From the IMG/VR virus record IMGVR_UViG_3300045742_000043, positions 1 to 40,080 of that record: a DNA stretch of 40,080 bases; one strand, 5' to 3'. Under the pieces are notes generated by a model that saw only the letters and a list, made by a program, of their open reading frames with translations, was not told the DNA's origin and made no database searches. Shown here piece after piece: positions 1 through 40,080 of this stretch. Numbering within the stretch: the first letter of the stretch is position 1; each line of letters opens with the position of its first letter. The position numbers were made by a program, and so were the translations under genes. Origin of the DNA: a virus.

Positions 1-127
1 ACGGTATTTGTGCAGCGTCTACATTGCTGTATAGTGATAGCCATGGTTAAGCAATAACGCTTAATCAAGTTAAACGTTAAAGGTAAATAGCATGACTAAT
101 GTAATCAAAGTAAATCCGGCCCATCCC
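1..127. repeat. Left copy of the 127-bp exact end repeat
   Basis: These 127 bases recur exactly at 39954-40080. The repeat includes the upstream region and the first codons of the gene at 92. The simplest reading is a circular assembly graph cut with a 127-base overlap, giving a 39,953-bp unit. A genuine direct terminal repeat of this length is also possible. Confidence 0.97.
8..35 (+). promoter_or_regulatory. Candidate sigma70-type promoter for the gene at 92
   Basis: TTGTGC (8-13) and TATAGT (30-35) are separated by 16 bases and lie about 60 bases before the ATG at 92. A small dyad TTAAGC-AATAAC-GCTTAA (47-64) follows and could be an operator. No other promoter-like element is obvious between the iteron region and this gene. 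Confidence 0.4.
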
Positions 128-4844: not shown

Positions 4845-5960
4845 ATGGAAGATGATGATGCGGTTCCTTCCGCACGCGAAGCTCTTGAAGCAGCTTTTGA
4901 TTCTGTAGATGAGGATGAAGAAAGCTCGGATGAAGAGTTTGAGTCAGAGGATGAAGGATCAGGAGAAGAAGACACAGTCGCTGACGCAGAAGAACCCAGC
5001 GATGAAGACAGCGAAGATGAAGAAGATGAGCCGGAGGAGGAAGAAAGCACTGAGGACGACGAGGACGACGGGGACGAGGAACCTGTCGACACAGCCAGTG
5101 GAGATGACTCAGGAGATGATGGAGAGGATGAGGAACCTGAAGCCGATGTAAAAGCCCCGGCGAGCTGGTCCCCTGAGTCCCGTGAAAAGTGGAAAGACAT
5201 ACCTGCTGAAATTAAAGCGCAAGTACTCAAACGTGAGAAGGAGGTTGCTGACGCTATAGGGAACTCCACGGCTGCGCGGCGGTTTGCTCAGGAGTGGTCA
5301 AGTATGGTGGACCCCTACAAAGGACTCATGGCTGCGCAGGGGGCCACACCTTACCAGGCTGTAGACCAGCTCCTAAAAATAGGGGCGGGCCTCGCTACAG
5401 GCAATCCTACCCATAAGGCGGACATAATCAAGAACCTGATCAATCAGTACCAGATTGATCTGCCTACGCTAGACAGTATGCTCGCTGGTGAAGCGCCCCC
5501 GGCTGGGCAAGTTGATGTTCAGGGGGAGGTGCAGAGGGCGTTACAGGCCCAGCGTGAACATGACCGCATACTCGCGGAGCGCAGAGAAGGTGAAACTGTT
5601 AAAAGTGAAATAGAGACTTTTAGCAAGAGTAAAGAGGCTGAATTCTTTGAGGACGTTCGTGGAGACATGGCTGATCTTATGGACGTGGCAGCAAAGCGGG
5701 GCCAAAATCTCACAATACAAGAAGCATACGACCGGGCTTGCCAGCTACATCCAGAGGTGAAGAAGGTGCTGGATCAGCGGGCTGCCGCAATCGCAGCAAG
5801 GAAGAAAAAGTCTATCTCTTCTAAGAAGAAACGGGCTGCCAGCAGCATAAAGGGCACCAGTAGCGGACAGACTAGTGCCCCTGATTCTCCTATGGATACA
5901 AGGTCTGCAATTGAGCAGGCTTGGGATAAAGCGGAGAACAGGCAGCGTACCAGAGTATAG
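4845..5960 (+). CDS. Scaffold-like protein with a highly acidic N-terminal domain
   Basis: This 371-residue protein lies directly upstream of the major capsid gene, where scaffolds lie in related phages. Residues 1-105 are extremely rich in Asp, Glu and Ser. The rest is helical, with WSPESREKWKDIP and a coiled-coil region, ending in a basic Lys/Arg/Ser-rich tail, which fits capsid-binding ends of scaffold proteins. Its likely role is to direct procapsid assembly and then leave; this is inferred from position and composition. AGAGG at 4831-4835 precedes the ATG. The acidic repeat also makes the antisense strand look open (4421-5269), which is a composition artefact. Confidence 0.8.
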   Translation: MEDDDAVPSAREALEAAFDSVDEDEESSDEEFESEDEGSGEEDTVADAEEPSDEDSEDEEDEPEEEESTEDDEDDGDEEPVDTASGDDSGDDGEDEEPEADVKAPASWSPESREKWKDIPAEIKAQVLKREKEVADAIGNSTAARRFAQEWSSMVDPYKGLMAAQGATPYQAVDQLLKIGAGLATGNPTHKADIIKNLINQYQIDLPTLDSMLAGEAPPAGQVDVQGEVQRALQAQREHDRILAERREGETVKSEIETFSKSKEAEFFEDVRGDMADLMDVAAKRGQNLTIQEAYDRACQLHPEVKKVLDQRAAAIAARKKKSISSKKKRAASSIKGTSSGQTSAPDSPMDTRSAIEQAWDKAENRQRTRV

Positions 5961-5968
5961 GGGTTGCA

Positions 5969-6004
5969 AACTGCCCGCCAGCCGTGCTAGGTTGGCGGGC
6001 AGTT
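5969..6004 (+). promoter_or_regulatory. 12-bp perfect hairpin between the scaffold and capsid genes
   Basis: AACTGCCCGCCA (5969-5980) pairs perfectly with TGGCGGGCAGTT (5993-6004) across a 12-base loop. No T-run follows, so it is a poor terminator. A stable hairpin here could protect the 5' end of a processed capsid mRNA or act as an RNase III site. The remaining bases to 6121 hold only the capsid gene's ribosome-binding site (AAGGA near 6109). Confidence 0.75.
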
Positions 6005-23974: not shown

Positions 23975-24985
23975 ATGACTGCCGCGATCCTTCTTAATCT
24001 TGGCGGGGCGGGTGCCTCTGCCCCGACTTTGTCCTCTGCCGTGATTCTCGGCGCACAGCTCGCGCTAGTCTTCACGGAGGTCATGGAGGACGGCGGCTCA
24101 GGTGTCGATGACTTCACACTTTCGCTTTCTGGTGGCGCGGCAACAGCAACGTACAGCTCAGGTCTAGGGAGCAACGCGCTGCTTTACGCACTCTCGCGCT
24201 CGGTTGCTGATACCGAAACCGGGACTTTGTCGTACACGCAACCGGGTGCTGGATTGCAGAGCGACAGCGCGAACGAACTCCAGAGCTTCACAGGCGAGGC
24301 TATTTCTTTTTGGAAAGAGCCGGAGGGTGTGTCCGCCAGTGTTGCTTCAGACGGCATAACGCTGAGCGTTGTGTACGACGAAGCTATCAGTACGGGAGCC
24401 AGCGGGCATACTGGTGTCTCTGTGAGCGCTTCCGGAGGGGCGGTAACTCCGACATACAGTTCAGGACTCGGATCGTCCACGCTCGTTTACACACTGGATC
24501 GAACTATTGATGCCACCGAGACATTAACTACCAGCTACACGCAGCCGGGGGCCGGATACAAAGATTCGGATGATCTTAACGTTGACACGTACTCCGGTCT
24601 CGCTGTAACCAACGGATCGATACAGGACACGATAGCTCCGACTTATGTCTCTTCTATGATCACCGCTGGTGGGGATGAGATGGAAGTTACTCTGTCTGAA
24701 AACATCACGGTAACGGACGGCACAGGGTTCAGCCTGGCTAACTTCTCCGGAGGAGCTGTCACCCCCACTTACTCGAGCGTGACAGATAATGTATTGACCT
24801 TTACGTTGTCCCGCACAGTCGCGTCTTCAGAAACTGGTGGCGAGGTTAGTTACGCCACCGTAGCAGACGGTATTGAGGACTCCGCAGGTAACGATCTTGG
24901 TTCGTTCAGCGATCGTGCTGTCACTAACCCCTCTCTGCAAGAGCAGGGGGCCGGTCTTAGATTATCAATAGCAATAGGATTATAA
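23975..24985 (+). CDS. Protein with three tandem SWM/Ig-like beta domains
   Basis: In this 336-residue protein, three homologous units of about 95-100 residues each contain LSxxAVTPTYSSGL, xLxYTLSRTV-type strands and a DSAGN-type loop (SANEL, SDDLN, SAGNDL). The pattern resembles the SwmB/SWM-repeat family of Ig-like domains common in surface adhesins. The N-terminal 15 residues are hydrophobic and Gly/Ala-rich (AAILLNLGGAGASAP), and the last residues (GLRLSIAIGL) are short and hydrophobic. It is likely displayed on the virion and may help adsorption. The start at 23975 follows the previous stop by three bases. Confidence 0.78.
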   Translation: MTAAILLNLGGAGASAPTLSSAVILGAQLALVFTEVMEDGGSGVDDFTLSLSGGAATATYSSGLGSNALLYALSRSVADTETGTLSYTQPGAGLQSDSANELQSFTGEAISFWKEPEGVSASVASDGITLSVVYDEAISTGASGHTGVSVSASGGAVTPTYSSGLGSSTLVYTLDRTIDATETLTTSYTQPGAGYKDSDDLNVDTYSGLAVTNGSIQDTIAPTYVSSMITAGGDEMEVTLSENITVTDGTGFSLANFSGGAVTPTYSSVTDNVLTFTLSRTVASSETGGEVSYATVADGIEDSAGNDLGSFSDRAVTNPSLQEQGAGLRLSIAIGL

Positions 24986-26063: not shown

Positions 26064-26330
26064 TCAGTCCTGGTTCACGTAGTTTCTGTCCGGGGCGGCC
26101 CCTTCGTTCTCAATCTCCTCCAATAATTCAATGTACTTCTTTAGATGGTGCTGAGCTTTGCGCAGGTCTTCCAGCCCATTCTTGTGCTTGTGCCTGAACA
26201 CATACTTAGTGATGCAGTATTGAAACTGGTCAAAGTCTAGCTGCCAGCAGATGTCCCAATGCTGTAGATTATGTCCGGTCACCGTTTGCTGGTAGTGGAT
26301 CCCACCGATTTGTGTTTCGTTCGCTCTCAT
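26064..26330 (-). CDS. DUF3310 family protein
   Basis: The 88-residue protein begins at the ATG whose first base is 26330, preceded by AGGAGA and overlapping the thymidylate synthase-like stop (ATGA). The pattern IGGIHYQQ, then LQHWDICW, YCITKYVFRHKHKNGLEDLRKAQHHLKKYIELLE is that of DUF3310, a small phage family sometimes called nucleotide-kinase-like. The function is not established. Its position directly after the ThyA-like gene fits a role in nucleotide metabolism. It is the last gene of the minus-strand operon and converges on the structural operon. Confidence 0.88.
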   Translation of the reverse strand: MRANETQIGGIHYQQTVTGHNLQHWDICWQLDFDQFQYCITKYVFRHKHKNGLEDLRKAQHHLKKYIELLEEIENEGAAPDRNYVNQD

Positions 26331-27286
26331 TTGTTTCTCCTGTCTATCCATTGTACTGAGGCTTTGCGCCATTGGTCGTCTCTTACGTTGAGTATCTGCC
26401 CAAGTCTGAGCCTGCTATTCGGCCCTGCTAGGTACGCTTCCATCATCGGCCTGGCTACCCACTGGAACCACTTAGTTCGGCCCCCGCTGCCGTTCTGCAC
26501 GTAGTCTTCACAATCCCTATGTAGCTGCCACCACGTTTCTTTGTCTTGCAGAATGGGGTAGGCGTGTAGCCCAGGTTGGCTATAGTCGTGGGTGCACCCG
26601 CTCTTGAATAGTTCTTCATAGTTATTAAGTTCGGTATAAACGTGAAGATTATTGGAAACTACTCTGTAAGTTCCAATCTTCAAACCGGCTGAGAAAGCTA
26701 TCAGTTCTTGCAGGTAGGTGAAGTGTACCACGTTGGCCCCCAGAGCTCCCCACACAAGATCGTTACTGCGGTTGACTACTAGCATATCTAGGTGGCCGTC
26801 CCACGCCCTCAGCATGATTTGGGTATTGCAAGGGCGATCATTATGTGGGACTAAAGGCAGGTCCGCTATAGGATCCCACATATTGAGCACTACTTGCCGA
26901 TCTTCTGGGTCTGTAGTCAATCTTTTTATTGCGGTGGATATCTGATCAAAATCCCAGTGGCTTATCCATCTGTGGCCGTAGGCTCCCCATATCATGTTAG
27001 TGTTTTCGTCAGCAAAGTTTCTGTACCCTTTATTGAACTGTTCTACAAACCTAACATCATTACTGCCCGCCAGCATCCACACAACTTCAGCAACGTGGAA
27101 GAAGTGGTTGCAGTCTCGAGCAGGGCTGAACAGCACCCGATTCAATGGGTTCTTTAGCTCCATAATAATCGGGCGAGGGTAACTTATCACTGGCCCGTTG
27201 CGGCTGGTCTGAGTTATCCCACCCGCGCGGAGCGCCCACCACGCATTATGATAGAGTTCATCTACTGTGACACCGAATATTTCCAT
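26327..27286 (-). CDS. Thymidylate synthase-family enzyme (possible dUMP hydroxymethylase)
   Basis: The 319-residue protein uses the ATG at 27286 after AGAGGAAA. ThyA landmarks are present: E67 in EVVWMLAG, YGHRW near 103-107, catalytic C153 in RPCNTQ, phosphate-binding R173-S174 in NRSND, D176, N185 in GANVVHF (equivalent to the Asn that selects dUMP in ThyA) and H215-x-Y217 in NLHVY. Active residues are intact. Classical ThyA makes dTMP from dUMP; related phage enzymes make 5-hydroxymethyl-dUMP with the same core. The adjacent aGPT-PPlase-like and glycosyltransferase-like genes favour the hydroxymethylase reading, though the sequence alone does not decide. No DHFR gene is seen. Confidence 0.88.
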   Translation of the reverse strand: MEIFGVTVDELYHNAWWALRAGGITQTSRNGPVISYPRPIIMELKNPLNRVLFSPARDCNHFFHVAEVVWMLAGSNDVRFVEQFNKGYRNFADENTNMIWGAYGHRWISHWDFDQISTAIKRLTTDPEDRQVVLNMWDPIADLPLVPHNDRPCNTQIMLRAWDGHLDMLVVNRSNDLVWGALGANVVHFTYLQELIAFSAGLKIGTYRVVSNNLHVYTELNNYEELFKSGCTHDYSQPGLHAYPILQDKETWWQLHRDCEDYVQNGSGGRTKWFQWVARPMMEAYLAGPNSRLRLGQILNVRDDQWRKASVQWIDRRNK

Positions 27287-28097
27287 TGTATTTCCTCTTA
27301 CTTCTGCCTTTATGTTCACGGACCCTGCAATACTTATCGAATTCACAAAGGCAGTTTTGTAAATCCTGTCCGTCTATTCTCAACTCCGGTACATCTTTTA
27401 TTATCCGGGTGTGTAAACCGTCAAAGACTGTATAGAAGTTTCCTGGGGTAATCTTTTGCCCCGTTACCCAGTTTAACCCACGGAGGCTCCCAGGGCCATG
27501 GGCGACAAAAGTAAACGAATCCTCAGCCCTGAACAGCGGATGCCCCGCAGTGTTCTTAAGATCAGCTACTACCTGAGCGGCCATGAAGCTGCCGAATCCC
27601 TCGTACCCCTGTAGAATATAATGGGCTTTCGCACAAGTGCTCACATTTTTCCACTTGAATTCCTCCCGCACAGGGAGAAGCCCGATAAGCACTTCTTCCA
27701 GGTAGTCCAGCTTGTTCATCTTCCTGCCGTGAGTAGTGACCACGTAAGCGTTCCCCCATATGGTGGTTCCCTCGCTGGCCATTTGCTTGAGCAAGTTGAC
27801 GTAATACAGAATAGTCTGATCATTAGGTTCTTCGTCTAGCGGCCACAGTTCCAGGGTGTCGGGCTTGTTTATCAGCCTAGCCAACCCCATCAACCATTCT
27901 AGGCTGTCAGTGGGTGCTTCTTGTGACCAGCTACGAATCCACCGGGTCACCCTGTCATCCTCCCGGTGGACGTTGCAAAAGTAGGTCTGCTGGAACACCC
28001 AATCTTCGGACCAGGGCTTACCGACGTTTGCCTCCTTTAAGACCCTAATTTTCTCCCTTTCCCGTATCCAGTAGCATAATTGGTCGTAATACTGCAT
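27258..28097 (-). CDS. aGPT-PPlase / hmdU-kinase-helical-domain-like (DNA glycosylase fold) protein
   Basis: In this 279-residue protein, FCNVHREDDRVTRWI at about 40-54 is the signature I associate with the alpha-glutamyl/putrescinyl-thymine pyrophosphorylase and hmdU DNA kinase helical-domain superfamily described in phage thymine hypermodification. GYEGFGSFMAAQVVADL at 164-180 looks like the helix-hairpin-helix of the DNA glycosylase fold. NCLCEFDKYCRVREHKGR near 248-264 fits the C-terminal end. There is no P-loop, so it is not the kinase itself. Known members replace an activated pyrophosphate on 5-hydroxymethyluracil in DNA with an amine. AGGAT precedes the ATG. Its end overlaps the ThyA-like gene by 29 bases. 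Confidence 0.72.
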   Translation of the reverse strand: MQYYDQLCYWIREREKIRVLKEANVGKPWSEDWVFQQTYFCNVHREDDRVTRWIRSWSQEAPTDSLEWLMGLARLINKPDTLELWPLDEEPNDQTILYYVNLLKQMASEGTTIWGNAYVVTTHGRKMNKLDYLEEVLIGLLPVREEFKWKNVSTCAKAHYILQGYEGFGSFMAAQVVADLKNTAGHPLFRAEDSFTFVAHGPGSLRGLNWVTGQKITPGNFYTVFDGLHTRIIKDVPELRIDGQDLQNCLCEFDKYCRVREHKGRSKRKYNGNIRCHSR

Positions 28098-28137
28098 AAT
28101 TTATCCTAATTTGGTTAAAACGGCTTTACTCGAGGCC

Positions 28138-28201
28138 GCTCGACGGGTTTATAATTGTTGGCAATGCAAAACTATGGGGTACATACCAAAACCCGTCGAG
28201 C
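28138..28201. promoter_or_regulatory. Long inverted repeat between glycosyltransferase and aGPT-PPlase-like genes
   Basis: GCTCGACGGGTTT (28138-28150) and AAACCCGTCGAGC (28189-28201) are perfect 13-bp arms around a 38-base loop. It lies in the only sizeable gap (28098-28217) of the modification gene group. In the minus-strand transcript it would form a long-loop hairpin about 40 bases before the next start codon. No T-run follows, so it is more likely an RNA-processing, operator or translational control element than a terminator. Confidence 0.75.
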
Positions 28202-28217
28202 AGCTCTGAGTAAGCTC

Positions 28218-29054
28218 TCACGTTAAATTGGGGTGTTTGCCCCCCTGTACACGCCATTTAGCGAGACTACCAGTCTTATACGCCTTTTGCCACTGAGCAC
28301 GGTAATCTACACGCTCCTCACCGAGCCATTTAGCGGATTTGGGCTTCTTAATGACCTTCTTTATAAACGGACCAAAGTCCCGTACTAGGTCATCTATCGC
28401 AGCTTCCTGCATTTCCATAGTTCGGTAGTCACAGCCGCCCGCAGCTTGGGACGCCGCCCAGTCCACACAGAACTCTGTTATCAGACAGTTGCCTGCGCCG
28501 CTGGTTAGCACCTCCATATTGAGGCGCGTATCCGCCAATATGGGATGCTGGTCCACCCTCCACAGTTTGGGGAATCCCAGCCGGCGCAGCATAATCCGAT
28601 TCAGCCCATTGACAACTATGACTTTACCGTTTTCTTTAATTGGCAGGGGAGCCTGGTGTCCCATCTGTCTAGGGTGAACCCCGACCTGCACCCAAGCCTC
28701 CAGCAACGTTTCCATGTTGTAGAACATCTGGCCTAGCTCTTCCACTGCATCGCCCCGCAGCGTGACCAATTTATCGCCTACCCGTTTGGAGAATACAAGA
28801 TCATCATCCAGAATACACACTTTGTCTGTGGTGGGGCATACTGTACCTTCCATGATAGCTTGAAACTTCGTACTGTAGTTGGGGTTATCGTGAATGAAAG
28901 GCACGACAGTGACGCCGGGCGGCACTCGCTGCAAGTGCTGTTCTACCTCGTCAGGTGGACACACAATTGATGTGCGCTCCCACCACGTGGATGGGATGGA
29001 CTCCAACGTACGCTGTTTATCTACCCTCCCCCGTGTCATTATGATTAACTGCAT
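28218..29054 (-). CDS. TET-associated-type glycosyltransferase-like protein
   Basis: In this 278-residue protein the N-terminal TRGRVDKQRTLESIP (residues 7-21) and the DDD at 83-85 in CILDDDLVF are the nucleotide-sugar and metal-binding signatures of GT-A glycosyltransferases. The combination resembles the glycosyltransferases associated with phage DNA base modification. Further conserved-looking parts are VNGLNRIMLRR near 148 and NMEVLTSGAGNCLITEFCVDWA near 178-199. It would transfer a sugar to a hydroxymethylated base; substrate and sugar are unknown. GAGGAAA precedes the ATG, and a terminator lies only about 25 bases upstream. Confidence 0.72.
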   Translation of the reverse strand: MQLIIMTRGRVDKQRTLESIPSTWWERTSIVCPPDEVEQHLQRVPPGVTVVPFIHDNPNYSTKFQAIMEGTVCPTTDKVCILDDDLVFSKRVGDKLVTLRGDAVEELGQMFYNMETLLEAWVQVGVHPRQMGHQAPLPIKENGKVIVVNGLNRIMLRRLGFPKLWRVDQHPILADTRLNMEVLTSGAGNCLITEFCVDWAASQAAGGCDYRTMEMQEAAIDDLVRDFGPFIKKVIKKPKSAKWLGEERVDYRAQWQKAYKTGSLAKWRVQGGKHPNLT

Positions 29055-29075: not shown

Positions 29076-29110
29076 TCTAAAAAAGGGCAGAACCTACGGA
29101 ACTGCCCTTT
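29076..29110 (-). terminator. Minus-strand terminator upstream of the base-modification genes
   Basis: Read on the minus strand, AAAGGGCAG (from 29110) pairs with CTGCCCTTT (to 29082) around an 11-base loop, followed by a run of Ts. It ends transcription of the gene at 29190-29546 and lies about 25 bases before the glycosyltransferase ATG. There is little room for a separate promoter, so the genes at 29054-26064 probably depend on read-through. Confidence 0.85.
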
Positions 29111-31025: not shown

Positions 31026-31317
31026 TGTATTTCTCCTCTAGATCACGTAGAATTTGTTTACCGATTTCTGGGTCGTTGACCACGTACACGGGCCAGCCCA
31101 GCCTTAACAGTATGGTAATGACATATTCTTGTAAACTGCCTGATTTAACTCTTTTGCCCGGAGCTTTGAATTCTATAATGACTAGACAGGGGAACCTCTT
31201 AAAGAACAAATGGTCGGGGAACCCCCGTTTACCCATAGGGGTGATCTTCCAACAGTACCACCCGTTGAGCTCCGCCCATTTGCGAACCTTATTTTCTACC
31301 TCTGTCTTCTCACTCAT
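31003..31317 (-). CDS. VRR-NUC domain nuclease
   Basis: The 104-residue protein is a minimal single-domain VRR-NUC of the PD-(D/E)xK superfamily. Catalytic residues are visible: E6 in the first helix, D35 in GFPDHLF, E49-x-K51 in IIEFKAPG and Q63 in the following helix. Related proteins act on branched DNA as Holliday junction or flap nucleases. Its start overlaps the preceding stop (TAATG) and carries the repeated GGAGCGCAGAG leader. Its end overlaps the helicase gene by 23 bases. Confidence 0.93.
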   Translation of the reverse strand: MSEKTEVENKVRKWAELNGWYCWKITPMGKRGFPDHLFFKRFPCLVIIEFKAPGKRVKSGSLQEYVITILLRLGWPVYVVNDPEIGKQILRDLEEKYSERILGS

Positions 31318-31499
31318 TACTCTGCGCTCCCCAGACTATTCATTCCGGGGTCAAACAACTGCAAGGCTTTCTCTAACTCGTCCACATAGTCCAGCAGGTT
31401 ATTTATGACAAGGTACGCCGCCGCTACGTCAACGCTCACCGTGCCTTTGGCTTTCATGTTGTTACAAAAATTGATCGCGTCTTGTTTTGCATCCCTCAT
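31317..31499 (-). CDS. Small helical protein of unknown function
   Basis: This 60-residue protein starts from the ATG at 31499, which overlaps the preceding stop and is preceded by AAAGGAGCACAGAG. It is alpha-helical with heptad-like leucines (AAAYLVINNLLDYVDELEKALQLF). I recognise no family. It belongs to a chain of tiny genes sharing the same leader; the last codons (GSAE then TAA) lie within that leader copy. Confidence 0.7.
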   Translation of the reverse strand: MRDAKQDAINFCNNMKAKGTVSVDVAAAYLVINNLLDYVDELEKALQLFDPGMNSLGSAE

Positions 31500-31795
31500 T
31501 ACTCTGTGCTCCTTTGGGGCGGTCCCGGTTGCGGCATCCAATAAGAAAAGCTGCCGCTCCATTGAAATGTTTCCGAAATCGTGTCTTGATCCTCGTCTGC
31601 ATAGACGAACGGAACAAAGCCATAGAGTTCATCCCAGACAGCAAACATCGTCCCGTCTGTCGGCGGCGGTTCTTTGAGAACGCTTATCCAGCCTCGGACA
31701 TACTCAACATTGCCCGGTGAATTAATGGGCAGGCCAACCCTGTCACCGGCACCCTCGTACCAAGACATTGTTATCCGCTCTGGTGCATCACTCAT
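31499..31795 (-). CDS. DUF551-like small protein
   Basis: In this 98-residue protein, the segment WISVLKEPPPTDGTMFAVWDELYGF and the end FSYWMPQPGPP match the DUF551 pattern (WIsVxxxLPxdGxxVxvw ... iTHWMPLPxPP), a small protein found in many phages and prophages without known function. Aromatic residues are plentiful. The leader GGGAGCACAGAGTAG precedes the ATG. Its stop overlaps the next start. Confidence 0.78.
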   Translation of the reverse strand: MSDAPERITMSWYEGAGDRVGLPINSPGNVEYVRGWISVLKEPPPTDGTMFAVWDELYGFVPFVYADEDQDTISETFQWSGSFSYWMPQPGPPQRSTE

Positions 31796-31819: not shown

Positions 31820-32035
31820 TCATTTACGCACCCCTTCGGTAATGCCTGCGCCACTACCGCCGCCGCTTGGCTCGTTTATCGGGATTTTGTATCGCTGGCC
31901 TTTCAGCCGCTCGATCTTTGCCTCTAACTCCGCTATGCGCTGTTGCTGGAAATCCCACGCAGCACGTGCTGCTACGATTCCGATGGTCTGGCCTTGCTGG
32001 CCCCACCATTTATCAAAATCGTCTGCTTTACTCAT
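31820..32035 (-). CDS. Small conserved-type phage protein with coiled-coil segment
   Basis: In this 71-residue protein, DDFDKWWGQQGQTIGIVAARAAWDFQQQRIAELEAKIERL is a pattern seen repeatedly in small phage proteins of the replication region; the helix at 28-45 forms a coiled coil. The tail is Gly-rich. The function is unknown. The leader GGAGCACAGAGTA precedes the ATG. A 24-base gap separates it from the next gene. Confidence 0.75.
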   Translation of the reverse strand: MSKADDFDKWWGQQGQTIGIVAARAAWDFQQQRIAELEAKIERLKGQRYKIPINEPSGGGSGAGITEGVRK

Positions 32036-32047
32036 TACTCTGTGCTC

Positions 32048-32203
32048 CTACCACTGCCGATCAATCCAATCATCAAACGTGTCGTACTCACCGCAGCGGC
32101 TACACTGTAAATCGCCTTCGCCTACATCGACCCATTCGTGAAAACCGGCCCAGCACAAAAACCTCTCGACTAATCGTTGTGTCGCATTTTCTAGTTCATC
32201 CAT
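32048..32203 (-). CDS. 51-residue protein with a CxxC zinc-knuckle-like motif
   Basis: A frame begins at the ATG at 32203, after GGAGCAGACG, and ends with TAG at 32048-32050, 12 bases before the next gene. The product contains CWAGFHEWVDVGEGDLQCSRCGE: a single Cys, a His and a CxxC, which could bind one zinc. The end is acidic and Trp-rich (DTFDDWIDRQW). Its fit in the compact gene chain and the same style of ribosome-binding leader support it. The function is unknown. Confidence 0.7.
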   Translation of the reverse strand: MDELENATQRLVERFLCWAGFHEWVDVGEGDLQCSRCGEYDTFDDWIDRQW

Positions 32204-32218: not shown

Positions 32219-32914
32219 TTAGTCTCCGCTGAATTTACAAGGCCCGCCCTTATCCCTACTGAACGGACACCACCGGCAATAGGGACCAGGATTCGGCACT
32301 TGTGCTTGTTCATTATCCATCTGTGCCAACCGTTGATCCCAGAAGTATTTATACGTGTTGAACATACGAGCTTCGTAGCTGTTCTCTACGTTCTTACCGA
32401 GATCCATGTAAGTGCCGATCACCCTTACCTGTTCTGGTTCTTCTGTCCATGGCAGGGCAAGGCTCACACTGCCATAGAAGTTACGCTGGTCCACATGGTC
32501 TGGCCATTCTTTACCTGACTTGAGTTCGTATATATGGATAACCCCATCTTTTGGCGGAACTATGATGTCTATAAACCCGCGAATGTAGGGCTCTTCCTCA
32601 TCATCCACAACTAAGTCCCATTCCTTGTTGAGTTTGAACCCTAGTTCGGCTATGGCTCCCAGATCCCGCAGCATCTTAAAGAAATCTTCGTAGGGCTCTA
32701 ACGGAGCATACACGTTTCTGCCTGTCTCATCTAGCTCCACGGGTATGGCGTTTATGTGGCCCTGTATTAGCTGCTCTACCACGGCATGTAGGTTGGTACC
32801 CCTTTGGGCAGCCGCGCCGCTAGGAGGCGTTCTGAGGCGCTCTACGTAGCGGAATTTGTACTGCGCAGGGCACTTTTTAAACACACTCCATTGTGTGTAA
32901 CTCTTTGCTGTCAT
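32219..32914 (-). CDS. Cas4/RecB-like PD-(D/E)xK exonuclease with four-cysteine cluster
   Basis: The 231-residue protein uses the ATG overlapping the HAD stop (ATGA). Nuclease residues H43, D116 (GFIDIIV) and E130-x-K132 (YELKSGK) fit the RecB/Cas4-type core. C15 plus C213, C216 and C226 match the one-plus-three cysteine layout that holds an iron-sulphur cluster in Cas4 and AddB. These enzymes process DNA ends, usually with a helicase. Phages encode stand-alone versions for replication or recombination; no CRISPR array or other cas gene is present. Confidence 0.9.
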   Translation of the reverse strand: MTAKSYTQWSVFKKCPAQYKFRYVERLRTPPSGAAAQRGTNLHAVVEQLIQGHINAIPVELDETGRNVYAPLEPYEDFFKMLRDLGAIAELGFKLNKEWDLVVDDEEEPYIRGFIDIIVPPKDGVIHIYELKSGKEWPDHVDQRNFYGSVSLALPWTEEPEQVRVIGTYMDLGKNVENSYEARMFNTYKYFWDQRLAQMDNEQAQVPNPGPYCRWCPFSRDKGGPCKFSGD

Positions 32915-33264
32915 TTTTTGTTCCAAGGCAGAAACCTGGACATCTCTTCCAGGCTGGGGAATTCCCCGTTAAATTGAATAGCCCGGTCATCGATCGTCAA
33001 CCAGGCGACAGGCTTCTCAGTTGGGAACTTAATCCCTGGGTTCCGCAAACCATGATTTACAAGATACCGCGCCATGCAGGGAATCCCATCTGGCTGACTA
33101 CTGCGGCTGGAGTACACGCACACTTCAAACTCATCGCTCTCCAGCATCTCATCTAGCCATTCTATTGCTCCCGGCACAGGAGGGTCATCAGCCCTTCCTG
33201 CGCCGTGCCAACCGGAGGTATAGCTATGGATGACCCCGTCAAAGTCAACGCATATCGTCTTCAT
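32911..33264 (-). CDS. HAD-superfamily hydrolase (small phosphatase-like)
   Basis: In this 117-residue protein, motif I is VDFDGVIH (D7, D9), motif II is the Ser-rich YSSRS near 51-55, motif III Lys is K84 in PTEKPVA, and motif IV is TIDDRA (D92-D93). All catalytic elements of a minimal, capless HAD phosphatase are present. Substrates cannot be predicted; a nucleotide or a DNA end are both plausible in this replication operon. A G-rich ribosome-binding site precedes the ATG. The gene overlaps the nuclease gene by four bases. Confidence 0.88.
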   Translation of the reverse strand: MKTICVDFDGVIHSYTSGWHGAGRADDPPVPGAIEWLDEMLESDEFEVCVYSSRSSQPDGIPCMARYLVNHGLRNPGIKFPTEKPVAWLTIDDRAIQFNGEFPSLEEMSRFLPWNKK

Positions 33265-33300: not shown

Positions 33301-34566
33301 TTAGTCTGTTTCCTTTATGTCTGCCCAATTTTCACCAACAAATCCCTCGCTGCGCATAGGCACATCAAAGAGGTCTTGGTCCATCGCAAGTCTTAGCCGA
33401 TCCATACTTTCCTCCCAGATATCTGCTGGTGCTGAGATGTTAATCTCATCATGGACAGTTGCTAAGAACACATCATCGGCACCGCGCATATCTTCCCAAT
33501 CACAGATACACTGCTTGGTCTGATCGGCGGCACTGCCCTGAATAAGATAATTGAGCAGCTTGTACTCAAACGACATTATCCTATCATACTTATCCACATA
33601 CTTGGCAGGTTCAGTATAGTACCTGCGACCTCCCCATGTGGTGATGGGCATGCCTTGTCTGCCCATCTGCTTAGTATCAGTCTGCAACCACTTAATCCCT
33701 GGAAAAGCTCTAAGGTAGGCGTTGATTAATTGAATAGCTTCCTCATAGGTACAGCCTACCTGGCTAGACACTGCGCGGGGGCCTCCCCCGTAGATAATTT
33801 GGAAGGCAGTGATCTTAACCTGGGGACGCTGGAACTCCAGCCCCGCAACAGCTTTGATCATTTCCTGCGCCATACTGTGCGGGTCTAGGCTGGGGTTCTT
33901 TTGATACGCCTCTAAAAGAATACCATCTTCAAAATGCGCAGCTACTCGTATCTCCTGCCCACTAAAGTCCCGCTTTAACCAGACGTGTCCTTCTTCGGGG
34001 AGGAAGGCCCGCCGAAGCGTGGGTGGCTCAGGACAGTCGCTAGGGACTTCGATTTTGTACTGGTTTGGGGGATTCTGGAGATTGGGATGGTCACACGATA
34101 ACCGCCCGGTCCTTGCACCCTTACCCCCTCCAAAGTCATCCCGGCTCCTAACTTGATTCCAGTTGGGGTGGACTCTGCCGTCAGTGTGGGAGAGTTCGAG
34201 CCACTTAACGATAAAGTCACTGAGACATTTTCTAATTGCACCGTAATATATGACGTCATCTCTTAATCCTTTGTCTGCTATGGTTGATTCTAATACTTCC
34301 CGCTTGACACTACGGCGACCTTTAGGTGTGAACACCTGGTGAGTCACTGCGCCTGCATTATCAAGCGCCTTGCCTAGTTGAGCAGGGCTAGATAAATTGA
34401 GGTCTGGTGACTCTAAGGTGGCGCGTACCCGCGCTTCTACCATTGCCAGAGCTTCCGAGTATGTCTGCTGGTGATTTAACAGTAGATCTCTATCTACCCG
34501 GACACCCCGGCGAGTCGCGGCTACTAGTATGGGGCTGAGTTTACGTTCTCTATCATATGGCGTCAT
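33301..34566 (-). CDS. DNA polymerase family A, polymerase domain only
   Basis: In this protein of about 421 residues, motif A is KRDFSGQEIRVAAH, motif B is the KITAFQIIYGGG helix and motif C is TVHDEI. N-terminal SPAQLGKALDN and RTGRLSCDHPNLQNPP are typical of the thumb and palm of Pol I-like enzymes. The 3'-5' exonuclease domain is a separate gene just upstream (34553-35101). The chosen ATG at 34566 has a GGGGGAA site and overlaps the exonuclease gene by 14 bases in the +1 frame. Motif A reads DFSGQEIR rather than DYSQIELR. Confidence 0.93.
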   Translation of the reverse strand: MTPYDRERKLSPILVAATRRGVRVDRDLLLNHQQTYSEALAMVEARVRATLESPDLNLSSPAQLGKALDNAGAVTHQVFTPKGRRSVKREVLESTIADKGLRDDVIYYGAIRKCLSDFIVKWLELSHTDGRVHPNWNQVRSRDDFGGGKGARTGRLSCDHPNLQNPPNQYKIEVPSDCPEPPTLRRAFLPEEGHVWLKRDFSGQEIRVAAHFEDGILLEAYQKNPSLDPHSMAQEMIKAVAGLEFQRPQVKITAFQIIYGGGPRAVSSQVGCTYEEAIQLINAYLRAFPGIKWLQTDTKQMGRQGMPITTWGGRRYYTEPAKYVDKYDRIMSFEYKLLNYLIQGSAADQTKQCICDWEDMRGADDVFLATVHDEINISAPADIWEESMDRLRLAMDQDLFDVPMRSEGFVGENWADIKETD

Positions 34567-35101
34567 AGAGTTCCCCCATACAGAAGTCGAATAGTTTCTT
34601 AGTCCGTACCACGTCACCGATTGCGTATGGCTTGACTAACTCAAACGGGGCTTCACAGATATAAGCCCCCGCTGTTTTCTTAGTCGCTTGTGGTACGTTG
34701 GCAATTATCCAATCATGCAATTCGTCCTGCTCCTCTGGTTCCAGCCCGAGTATCTCCTCGCTGGCAGGCTTGAGGGCAAGGTTCCCGTAGGGATTGTATT
34801 GGAATACCAAGTATTGAGTATCATGGACTTGATCCCACGCGGGCCATGGTAGTTTCAGCCAGTGGGCAGCAACGCTGAGGTCAAAGGGCGCGTTGTGATA
34901 TAGATGTTCGTATTTGTCCCAGTTATCTCTGAGTACCTCGTAGCCTGGTCCTCTAGGCTTGTCGGTTTTGGTGAATGAAATAGGCAGGTAGTCGGGTTCC
35001 TCATCGGGCAGCCACACCGCGACCCCAATAGGTCGCGGAGGGCTGATTAATGGGTTGCCAACTATCGCTTCGGTCTCGAAGTCGTAGGTGGCAATCACCA
35101 T
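34553..35101 (-). CDS. 3'-5' exonuclease (DnaQ-like) domain of the split family A DNA polymerase
   Basis: In this 182-residue protein, Exo I is YDFETEA (residues 6-12), Exo II is HNAPFDLSVA near 69, and Exo III is YAIGDVVRT near 158, the set needed for proofreading. In most family A phage polymerases this domain is fused to the polymerase encoded next. The end (RTKKLFDFCMGELYDAI) is where the fused protein would continue into MTPYDRERKLSPIL of the polymerase gene. The start overlaps the preceding stop (TAATG). Confidence 0.88.
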   Translation of the reverse strand: MVIATYDFETEAIVGNPLISPPRPIGVAVWLPDEEPDYLPISFTKTDKPRGPGYEVLRDNWDKYEHLYHNAPFDLSVAAHWLKLPWPAWDQVHDTQYLVFQYNPYGNLALKPASEEILGLEPEEQDELHDWIIANVPQATKKTAGAYICEAPFELVKPYAIGDVVRTKKLFDFCMGELYDAI

Positions 35102-39953: not shown

Positions 39954-40080
39954 ACGGTATTTGTGCAGCGTCTACATTGCTGTATAGTGATAGCCATGGT
40001 TAAGCAATAACGCTTAATCAAGTTAAACGTTAAAGGTAAATAGCATGACTAATGTAATCAAAGTAAATCCGGCCCATCCC
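39954..40080. repeat. Right copy of the 127-bp exact end repeat
   Basis: This is identical to 1-127, including the start of the small gene at 92, which is therefore present a second time as an N-terminal fragment (ATG at 40045). It should not be counted as a separate gene. Confidence 0.97.

Follow-up and report, generated by a model that had tools for sequence, protein, structure and literature searches.

A phage operon predicted to glycosylate 5-hydroxymethyluracil in DNA, with a glycosyltransferase in a gene slot that related phages fill with a DNA kinase

The window analysed here is the 40,080-nucleotide record IMGVR_UViG_3300045742_000043 of IMG/VR, the genome of an uncultivated phage. 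It contains four minus-strand genes, which encode, in the order of transcription, a glycosyltransferase (GT), a protein carrying the HMUDK_hel domain (hereafter HEL), a ThyA homologue and a DUF3310 protein (Table 1). A sequence-only reading of the same DNA had described the first three as adjacent same-strand genes of a thymine hypermodification cassette. The three reading frames lie exactly where it had placed them, and profile, structure and neighbourhood evidence assigns all three to a cassette based on 5-hydroxymethyldeoxyuridine (5-hmdU). Profile searches returned matches to PHROG 842, PF18723 and PF00303, and placed none of the proteins outside the families that had been claimed. A terminator-like hairpin followed by a T run is located just upstream of the GT gene, and the four genes therefore probably form a transcription unit of their own. 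The hairpin was read directly, as its loop of 11 exceeds the limits of the automatic scan and it is absent from the list produced by that scan.

The GT protein matches PHROG 842 (beta-glucosyl-HMC-alpha-glucosyltransferase) with an E value of 8e-22. The TAGT family (PF20691) includes T2 and T6 proteins that have been described as DNA glucosyltransferases (PMC13216743); the window GT alone scores below the curated cut-off of this family (E 9e-4, 19.7 bits against 27.5), and 47 of 52 aligned relatives match it, the best with an E value of 3e-27. Residues D83-D84-D85, R129, D175, G186, G206-G207 and W255 are invariant in the alignment. The AlphaFold2 model (pLDDT 92) adopts a GT-A-like fold, as had been proposed from the letters, and D83-D84-D85 corresponds to the DxD metal/nucleotide-sugar motif of the TAGT family. 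Foldseek searches with the model retrieved the GT-A enzymes GnT-I, POMGNT, TarP and RmlA (best E about 1e-5, TM 0.4-0.5). By sequence, no solved relative was found, as PDB searches with GT or HEL, used either singly or as profiles, returned nothing meaningful. A single-sequence search of viral contigs identified no relatives of the GT; for the GT-side search a broad alignment was too diverse, and a tighter alignment worked. The window GT is predicted to glycosylate 5-hmdU in DNA.

HEL matches PF18723 (2.7e-34), the helical domain of 5-hmdU DNA kinases, which is also annotated as aGPT-PPlase1. The earlier description of the protein as aGPT-PPlase-like thus holds for class 1, and does not extend to the amino-acid:DNA transferase (AADT) family PF18724. 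HEL was also considered as an AADT and rejected, PF18723 and PF18724 being separate genes in phage YuA. The HEL model is all-helical (pLDDT 94), and its nearest folds are, by weak matches, helix-hairpin-helix DNA glycosylases, in agreement with the glycosylase fold suggested previously. Top Foldseek matches include MjOgg-DNA (E 0.056), AlkA-type glycosylases and the glycinyltransferase gp46 of PaMx11 (8z2m). Residues F40, N42, R45, D48, D179, D193, C251, E252 and K255 are strongly conserved both in loci in which HEL accompanies a kinase and in loci in which it accompanies a GT.

The ThyA protein matches PF00303 (3e-20) and the thymidylate synthase (TS) family phrog_5131 (7e-87). Its best PDB match is the hydroxymethylase MilA, with 88.7 bits versus 52.4 bits for the best TS. 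Translation is likelier to start at the ATG at 27286, which has a Shine-Dalgarno-like AGAGGAA, than at the GTG at 27346. Residues were numbered on the E. coli TS sequence, which was confirmed to be 100% identical to PDB 1aob. The claim that all catalytic residues are present is correct for Cys146, Arg126, Arg166, Asp169 and Asn177, and incorrect for His147 and Trp80, which are replaced by Asn and Arg, respectively. In the 119 related phage ThyA proteins aligned (44 of the kinase class and 75 of the GT class), Cys146 and Asn177 are invariant and His147 is always Asn; position 80 is variable, and is mostly Arg or Ala. According to the Asn/Asp rule of the ThyA superfamily, Asn at position 177 denotes a uracil-type enzyme. 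The window protein would accordingly be of the uracil type, and its residue pattern, in which Asn177 and Cys146 are kept and His147 and Trp80 replaced, suits a dUMP hydroxymethylase. A dCMP hydroxymethylase coupled to glucosylation of 5-hydroxymethylcytosine (5-hmC) was rejected on account of Asn177.

The DUF3310 gene, the likely start of which is the ATG at 26330, closes the operon, as previously stated. DUF3310 is present in 69 of 75 GT-class and 40 of 47 kinase-class loci. The nucleotide kinase gp1.7 of T7 features a C-terminal DUF3310 domain at residues 122-184; BLAST revealed no significant similarity between the two proteins, which share the Pfam domain only. A role in 5-hmdUMP phosphorylation, and hence in making the triphosphate, is possible, and is offered as a lead.

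The amino-acid/amine route of thymine modification requires a P-loop 5-hmdU DNA kinase (PF18748) and an AADT (PF18724). Neither was found in the window record. The kinase was searched both with PF18748 and with a wider profile of 16 kinase sequences, which reaches 5e-59 or better in the viral records of kinase type that were searched; PF18724 gave no match. The same Pfam profiles recognise YuA gp13 and ViI Vi01_061c (PF18748) and YuA gp10 (PF18724). The window is bounded by a perfect terminal direct repeat, which usually marks a circular assembly. The 40-kb genome is therefore very probably complete, and the missing genes are meaningful. Similarly, no kinase or AADT was detected in any GT-type record searched whole, and the GT profile was silent in kinase-type records. 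Hence, of the genes that define the kinase type (M6/ViI), the window has the ThyA and PF18723 genes, and lacks those for PF18748 and PF18724.

We gathered 275 HEL loci, some of them from annotated phages, and assigned their genes with profiles built for the purpose. Gene classes were counted in dereplicated viral or phage loci that have at least 2.5 kb of upstream sequence and a ThyA gene. GT and kinase genes are almost mutually exclusive in this set: 52 loci carry GT only, 38 kinase only, one both and two neither (Fisher p 1.7e-22, a value that ignores relatedness). One of the two loci with neither gene is from nACB2, which has a kinase elsewhere in the genome. AADT genes occur in the kinase class only (26/38 versus 0/52 in the GT class; Fisher p 9e-14, relatedness again being ignored). 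In a separate count of partners, the gene directly upstream of HEL encodes a TAGT-like GT in 41 loci, a kinase in 36, and a GT-B-like or other GT in 14; loci without kinase and TAGT served to define the GT-B classes, for which Pfam support is weak or absent. A tree built from 138 HEL domains requires no fewer than 20 changes between kinase and GT, 9 of which are forced by well-supported branches. For instance, L078/L087, L185/L187 and L138/L151 are well-supported sister pairs of mixed type. The slot upstream of HEL has been repeatedly swapped between the P-loop 5-hmdU DNA kinase and glycosyltransferases, and the phage group with a GT in the kinase slot is widespread. When sampled from the GT side, 54 dereplicated GT loci include HEL in 50 cases and a kinase in none; ThyA is present in all of the 52 with enough sequence.

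Characterised and cultured phages show the same two arrangements. M6, YuA, PaMx11, phiW-14 and ViI carry both HEL and the kinase, and both are missing from the control SPO1, the DNA of which contains plain 5-hmdU. HEL thus tracks the post-replicative decoration of 5-hmdU and not 5-hmdU itself. As phiW-14, which the sequence-only reading had named as an example of known systems, has kinase and HEL, like ViI, these two phages represent a sister system of the kinase type, and not a system of the same type. The window shares with these phages homologous ThyA (40% identity to YuA gp17) and HEL proteins, both encoded near PolA in the smaller genomes, often with DUF3310 nearby. It differs in having a glycosyltransferase in place of the PF18748 kinase beside HEL. 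Two phages of Microbacterium foliorum are split in the same way: in Golden, a P-loop kinase (PF18751) directly precedes HEL, and a TS is present, whereas Morrigan carries HEL, TS and a TAGT glycosyltransferase, and is unmatched by the kinase profile. Morrigan gp46 is annotated as a thymidylate kinase and has no Pfam match. Brevibacterium phage LuckyBarnes encodes ThyA, two TAGT proteins and HEL, and the kinase profile is silent in its genome.

The same three gene families occur together in HTVC023P-type pelagiphages, the genomes of which average 58.8 kb. In these phages, TS and aGPT-PPlase1, in some cases with a beta-glucosyl-HMC-alpha-glucosyltransferase, are found near the DNA polymerase, and the authors suggest that the GT may broaden the function of the system (PMC9599517). 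The passages of that paper that were consulted neither report exclusivity or swapping of kinase and GT nor commit to a glycosyl product. The TAGT proteins of T2 and T6 belong to the same glycosyltransferase family and act on hydroxymethylpyrimidine DNA after replication. In contrast to the window system, the base is a cytosine (glucosyl-5-hmC) and not a uracil, a second sugar is added, and no HEL partner has been described. The product predicted here, an O-glycosylated 5-hydroxymethyluracil in DNA, is of the same class as base J. The routes differ, as the base J precursor is made within DNA by the JBP1/2 oxygenases and glucosylated by JGT, whereas the window route would start from a nucleotide made by a ThyA homologue. 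A 2019 paper gives glucosylated 5-hmdU as not reported in phages, and newer reports were not found in the literature searched.

Together, these data make it probable that the operon produces a glycosylated thymine. The ThyA homologue, judging from its residues and family, would convert dUMP to 5-hydroxymethyl-dUMP. Host or phage kinases, possibly with the DUF3310 protein, would yield the triphosphate, which would be incorporated during DNA synthesis, probably by the phage PolA. After replication, the GT-A enzyme would use a nucleotide-sugar as donor and attach its sugar to the 5-hydroxymethyl group, forming 5-(glycosyloxymethyl)-dU, a base J-like product. HEL may bind or flip 5-hmdU and offer it to the transferase whose gene directly precedes that of HEL; this step is the most speculative. 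We propose such a base-presenting role, for whichever transferase is paired with HEL, because of the fold, because the same residues are conserved in both classes, and because 5-hmdU is a substrate common to kinase and GT, which have no product in common.

Several observations weigh against the model as a whole. None of the window proteins scanned was recognised as the product of a sugar-nucleotide gene, and no chemistry for this virus or for any GT-type relative was found in the literature. The Foldseek E values that link HEL to glycosylases are weak. In ViI, HEL is located far from the kinase gene, and 30 loci have no recognised partner directly upstream of HEL. Four of the 54 GT loci (L283, L298, L320 and L335), all with an Asn-type ThyA, are devoid of HEL, which is therefore not strictly required. 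The count of GT-B partners is tentative and partly circular. Lastly, a phylogeny-aware sign test of pairs on starred (well-supported) branches found 5 of 6 pairs opposite and none the same (p 0.06). A single reading frame joining GT or kinase with HEL, which would prove the partnership, was also sought among the loci, and none was found.

HEL might alternatively be a second modifying enzyme, as in the original aGPT-PPlase idea, according to which the base carries a sugar and another substituent, or two alternative modifications exist. The strongly conserved residues found in both classes are indeed enzyme-like, and the fold resembles that of the PaMx11 glycinyltransferase. However, in a genome devoid of 5-hmdU DNA kinase and AADT, the phospho-intermediate used by gp46-type enzymes is not made. 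Moreover, the same HEL residues are kept beside a kinase or a GT, and HEL is missing in the four GT loci mentioned above. We consider a second modifier unlikely, and HEL reads better as a common partner, because related loci pair it with either a kinase or a glycosyltransferase. There is a small chance that HEL instead serves protection or self-recognition, for instance by keeping host glycosylases away from 5-hmdU or by telling phage DNA apart, and travels with any 5-hmdU-decorating system without being a transferase subunit. Such a function would agree with the glycosylase-like fold, with HEL genes that are missing or not adjacent to their partner, and with distant homologues beside ThyA in bacterial chromosomes, a gene type reported in defence systems (PMC13092281). 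In most loci, however, HEL directly adjoins the transferase gene, with repeated partner swaps, and SPO1, the DNA of which is full of plain 5-hmdU, manages without it.

It is highly improbable that the GT acts on another acceptor, such as a host wall polymer, a protein or 5-hmC, while ThyA and HEL do an unrelated job. GT-A enzymes are very diverse, and the window GT alone falls under the Pfam TAGT cut-off. Nevertheless, GT genes are found with HEL and ThyA in nearly all loci sampled from the GT side, the ThyA being of the Asn (uracil) type wherever it could be read, GT and kinase exclude each other, and a known DNA glucosyltransferase belongs to the TAGT family. Glycosylation of 5-hmdU is the interpretation that we favour.

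Additional features were noted in the loci surveyed. In GT-type cassettes, a radical SAM/SPASM protein is encoded beside GT and HEL in ten loci (L128, L131, L135, L138-L141, L156, L158 and L194), which suggests that base or sugar is processed further. Two tandem kinase-profile genes, along with ADDT, directly precede HEL in L116-L120 and L130, and possibly mediate two successive phosphorylation steps. In a 463-kb viral contig (L134), HEL (5078-5977) is preceded by a protein of the inosine-uridine nucleoside hydrolase family (PF01156, 2e-12), and no ThyA is found nearby; similar HEL proteins are present in L142, L147 and L154. Different chemistry possibly surrounds the same HEL domain in this setting. 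The four GT loci devoid of HEL are useful natural controls for the role of HEL; one of them, L283 (circular record MW202897), also carries a YfbR-like 5'-deoxynucleotidase. Distant PF18723 homologues adjoin a ThyA-like gene in bacterial chromosomes, where HEL may precede ThyA (L228, L231, L242, L244, L246, L259, L262, L263, L266, L268, L272 and L277) or follow it (L235, L237, L241, L252, L253 and L261). Upstream, L231 also features a thymidylate-kinase-like reading frame and possibly a TIR/SEFIR-like protein. TS, dNMP kinase and 5-hmdU-kinase genes have been reported from defence systems that are either predicted or validated (PMC13092281), to which these bacterial loci are probably related.

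Within the operon, the 120-nt gap between GT and HEL holds an inverted repeat, possibly a regulatory hairpin or operator, the arms of which (GCTCGACGGGTTT and AAACCCGTCGAGC) have no further exact copy in the window. Elsewhere in the window, DNA polymerase A is apparently split between two separate, overlapping frames, one for the polymerase (33301-34617) and one exonuclease-like (34553-35101). A small HAD-domain protein encoded near PolA (32911-33264; HAD_SAK_2, below cut-off) is a candidate nucleotide phosphatase. A 26-nt repeat around CTCATTACTCTGYGCTCC occurs in three copies in the early region (31306-31331, 31488-31513 and 32024-32049), and is a possible regulatory element. The protein encoded at 23975-24985 contains repeated modules (TYSSGLGS... 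TLSRTV) with an Ig-like look, and is perhaps a surface or tail-fibre adhesin. A near-identity search for the window among known phages gave no match.

Table 1 Features of the modification operon and of the ends of the window
Feature	Position	Strand	Basis
Glycosyltransferase of TAGT type (GT-A fold); predicted acceptor, 5-hmdU in DNA	28218..29054	-	phrog_842, TAGT relatives, invariant residues, fold model
HEL (HMUDK_hel / aGPT-PPlase1), fold like that of helix-hairpin-helix glycosylases; proposed to present the base to the GT	27258..28097	-	PF18723, model, Foldseek
ThyA-family dUMP 5-hydroxymethylase (predicted)	26327..27286	-	PF00303, phrog_5131, MilA match, residues
DUF3310 protein	26064..26330	-	PF11753 (2.9e-5); start codon overlaps the ThyA stop in ATGA
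Perfect inverted repeat of 13 bp between GT and HEL (GCTCGACGGGTTT / AAACCCGTCGAGC)	28138..28201		both arms exact
Hairpin resembling a terminator (GGGCAG-loop-CTGCCC, then T6), shortly upstream of GT	29079..29107	-	read directly
127-bp perfect terminal direct repeat, first copy	1..127		
127-bp perfect terminal direct repeat, second copy	39954..40080		

The genes described here were already known, and their pairing has been glimpsed before. Exclusivity, repeated swapping and the explicit prediction of glycosyl-5-hmdU are contributed by the present analysis, in which the earlier work of Iyer 2013, Lee 2018/2022 and Wen 2024 was considered through citing papers and Pfam/PDB names. The prediction is directly testable in cultured phages, by comparing Morrigan with Golden, which share a host species, and in LuckyBarnes. 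More tentatively, and with a likelihood that we would place slightly short of even, glycosylated 5-hydroxymethyluracil may be present, as a prokaryotic, ThyA-route counterpart of base J, in this phage and in what are probably hundreds of its uncultivated relatives. HEL would then be a general 5-hmdU-presenting adaptor, the swapped partner of which, a kinase or one of several unrelated glycosyltransferases, predicts the DNA chemistry. If so, aGPT-PPlase1/HMUDK_hel would be viewed as a modular reader of 5-hmdU instead of as a pyrophosphorylase or a component of the kinase, new DNA glycosyltransferases would become available for tagging 5-hydroxymethyluracil, and the DNA chemistry of these phages would be predictable from one gene slot.

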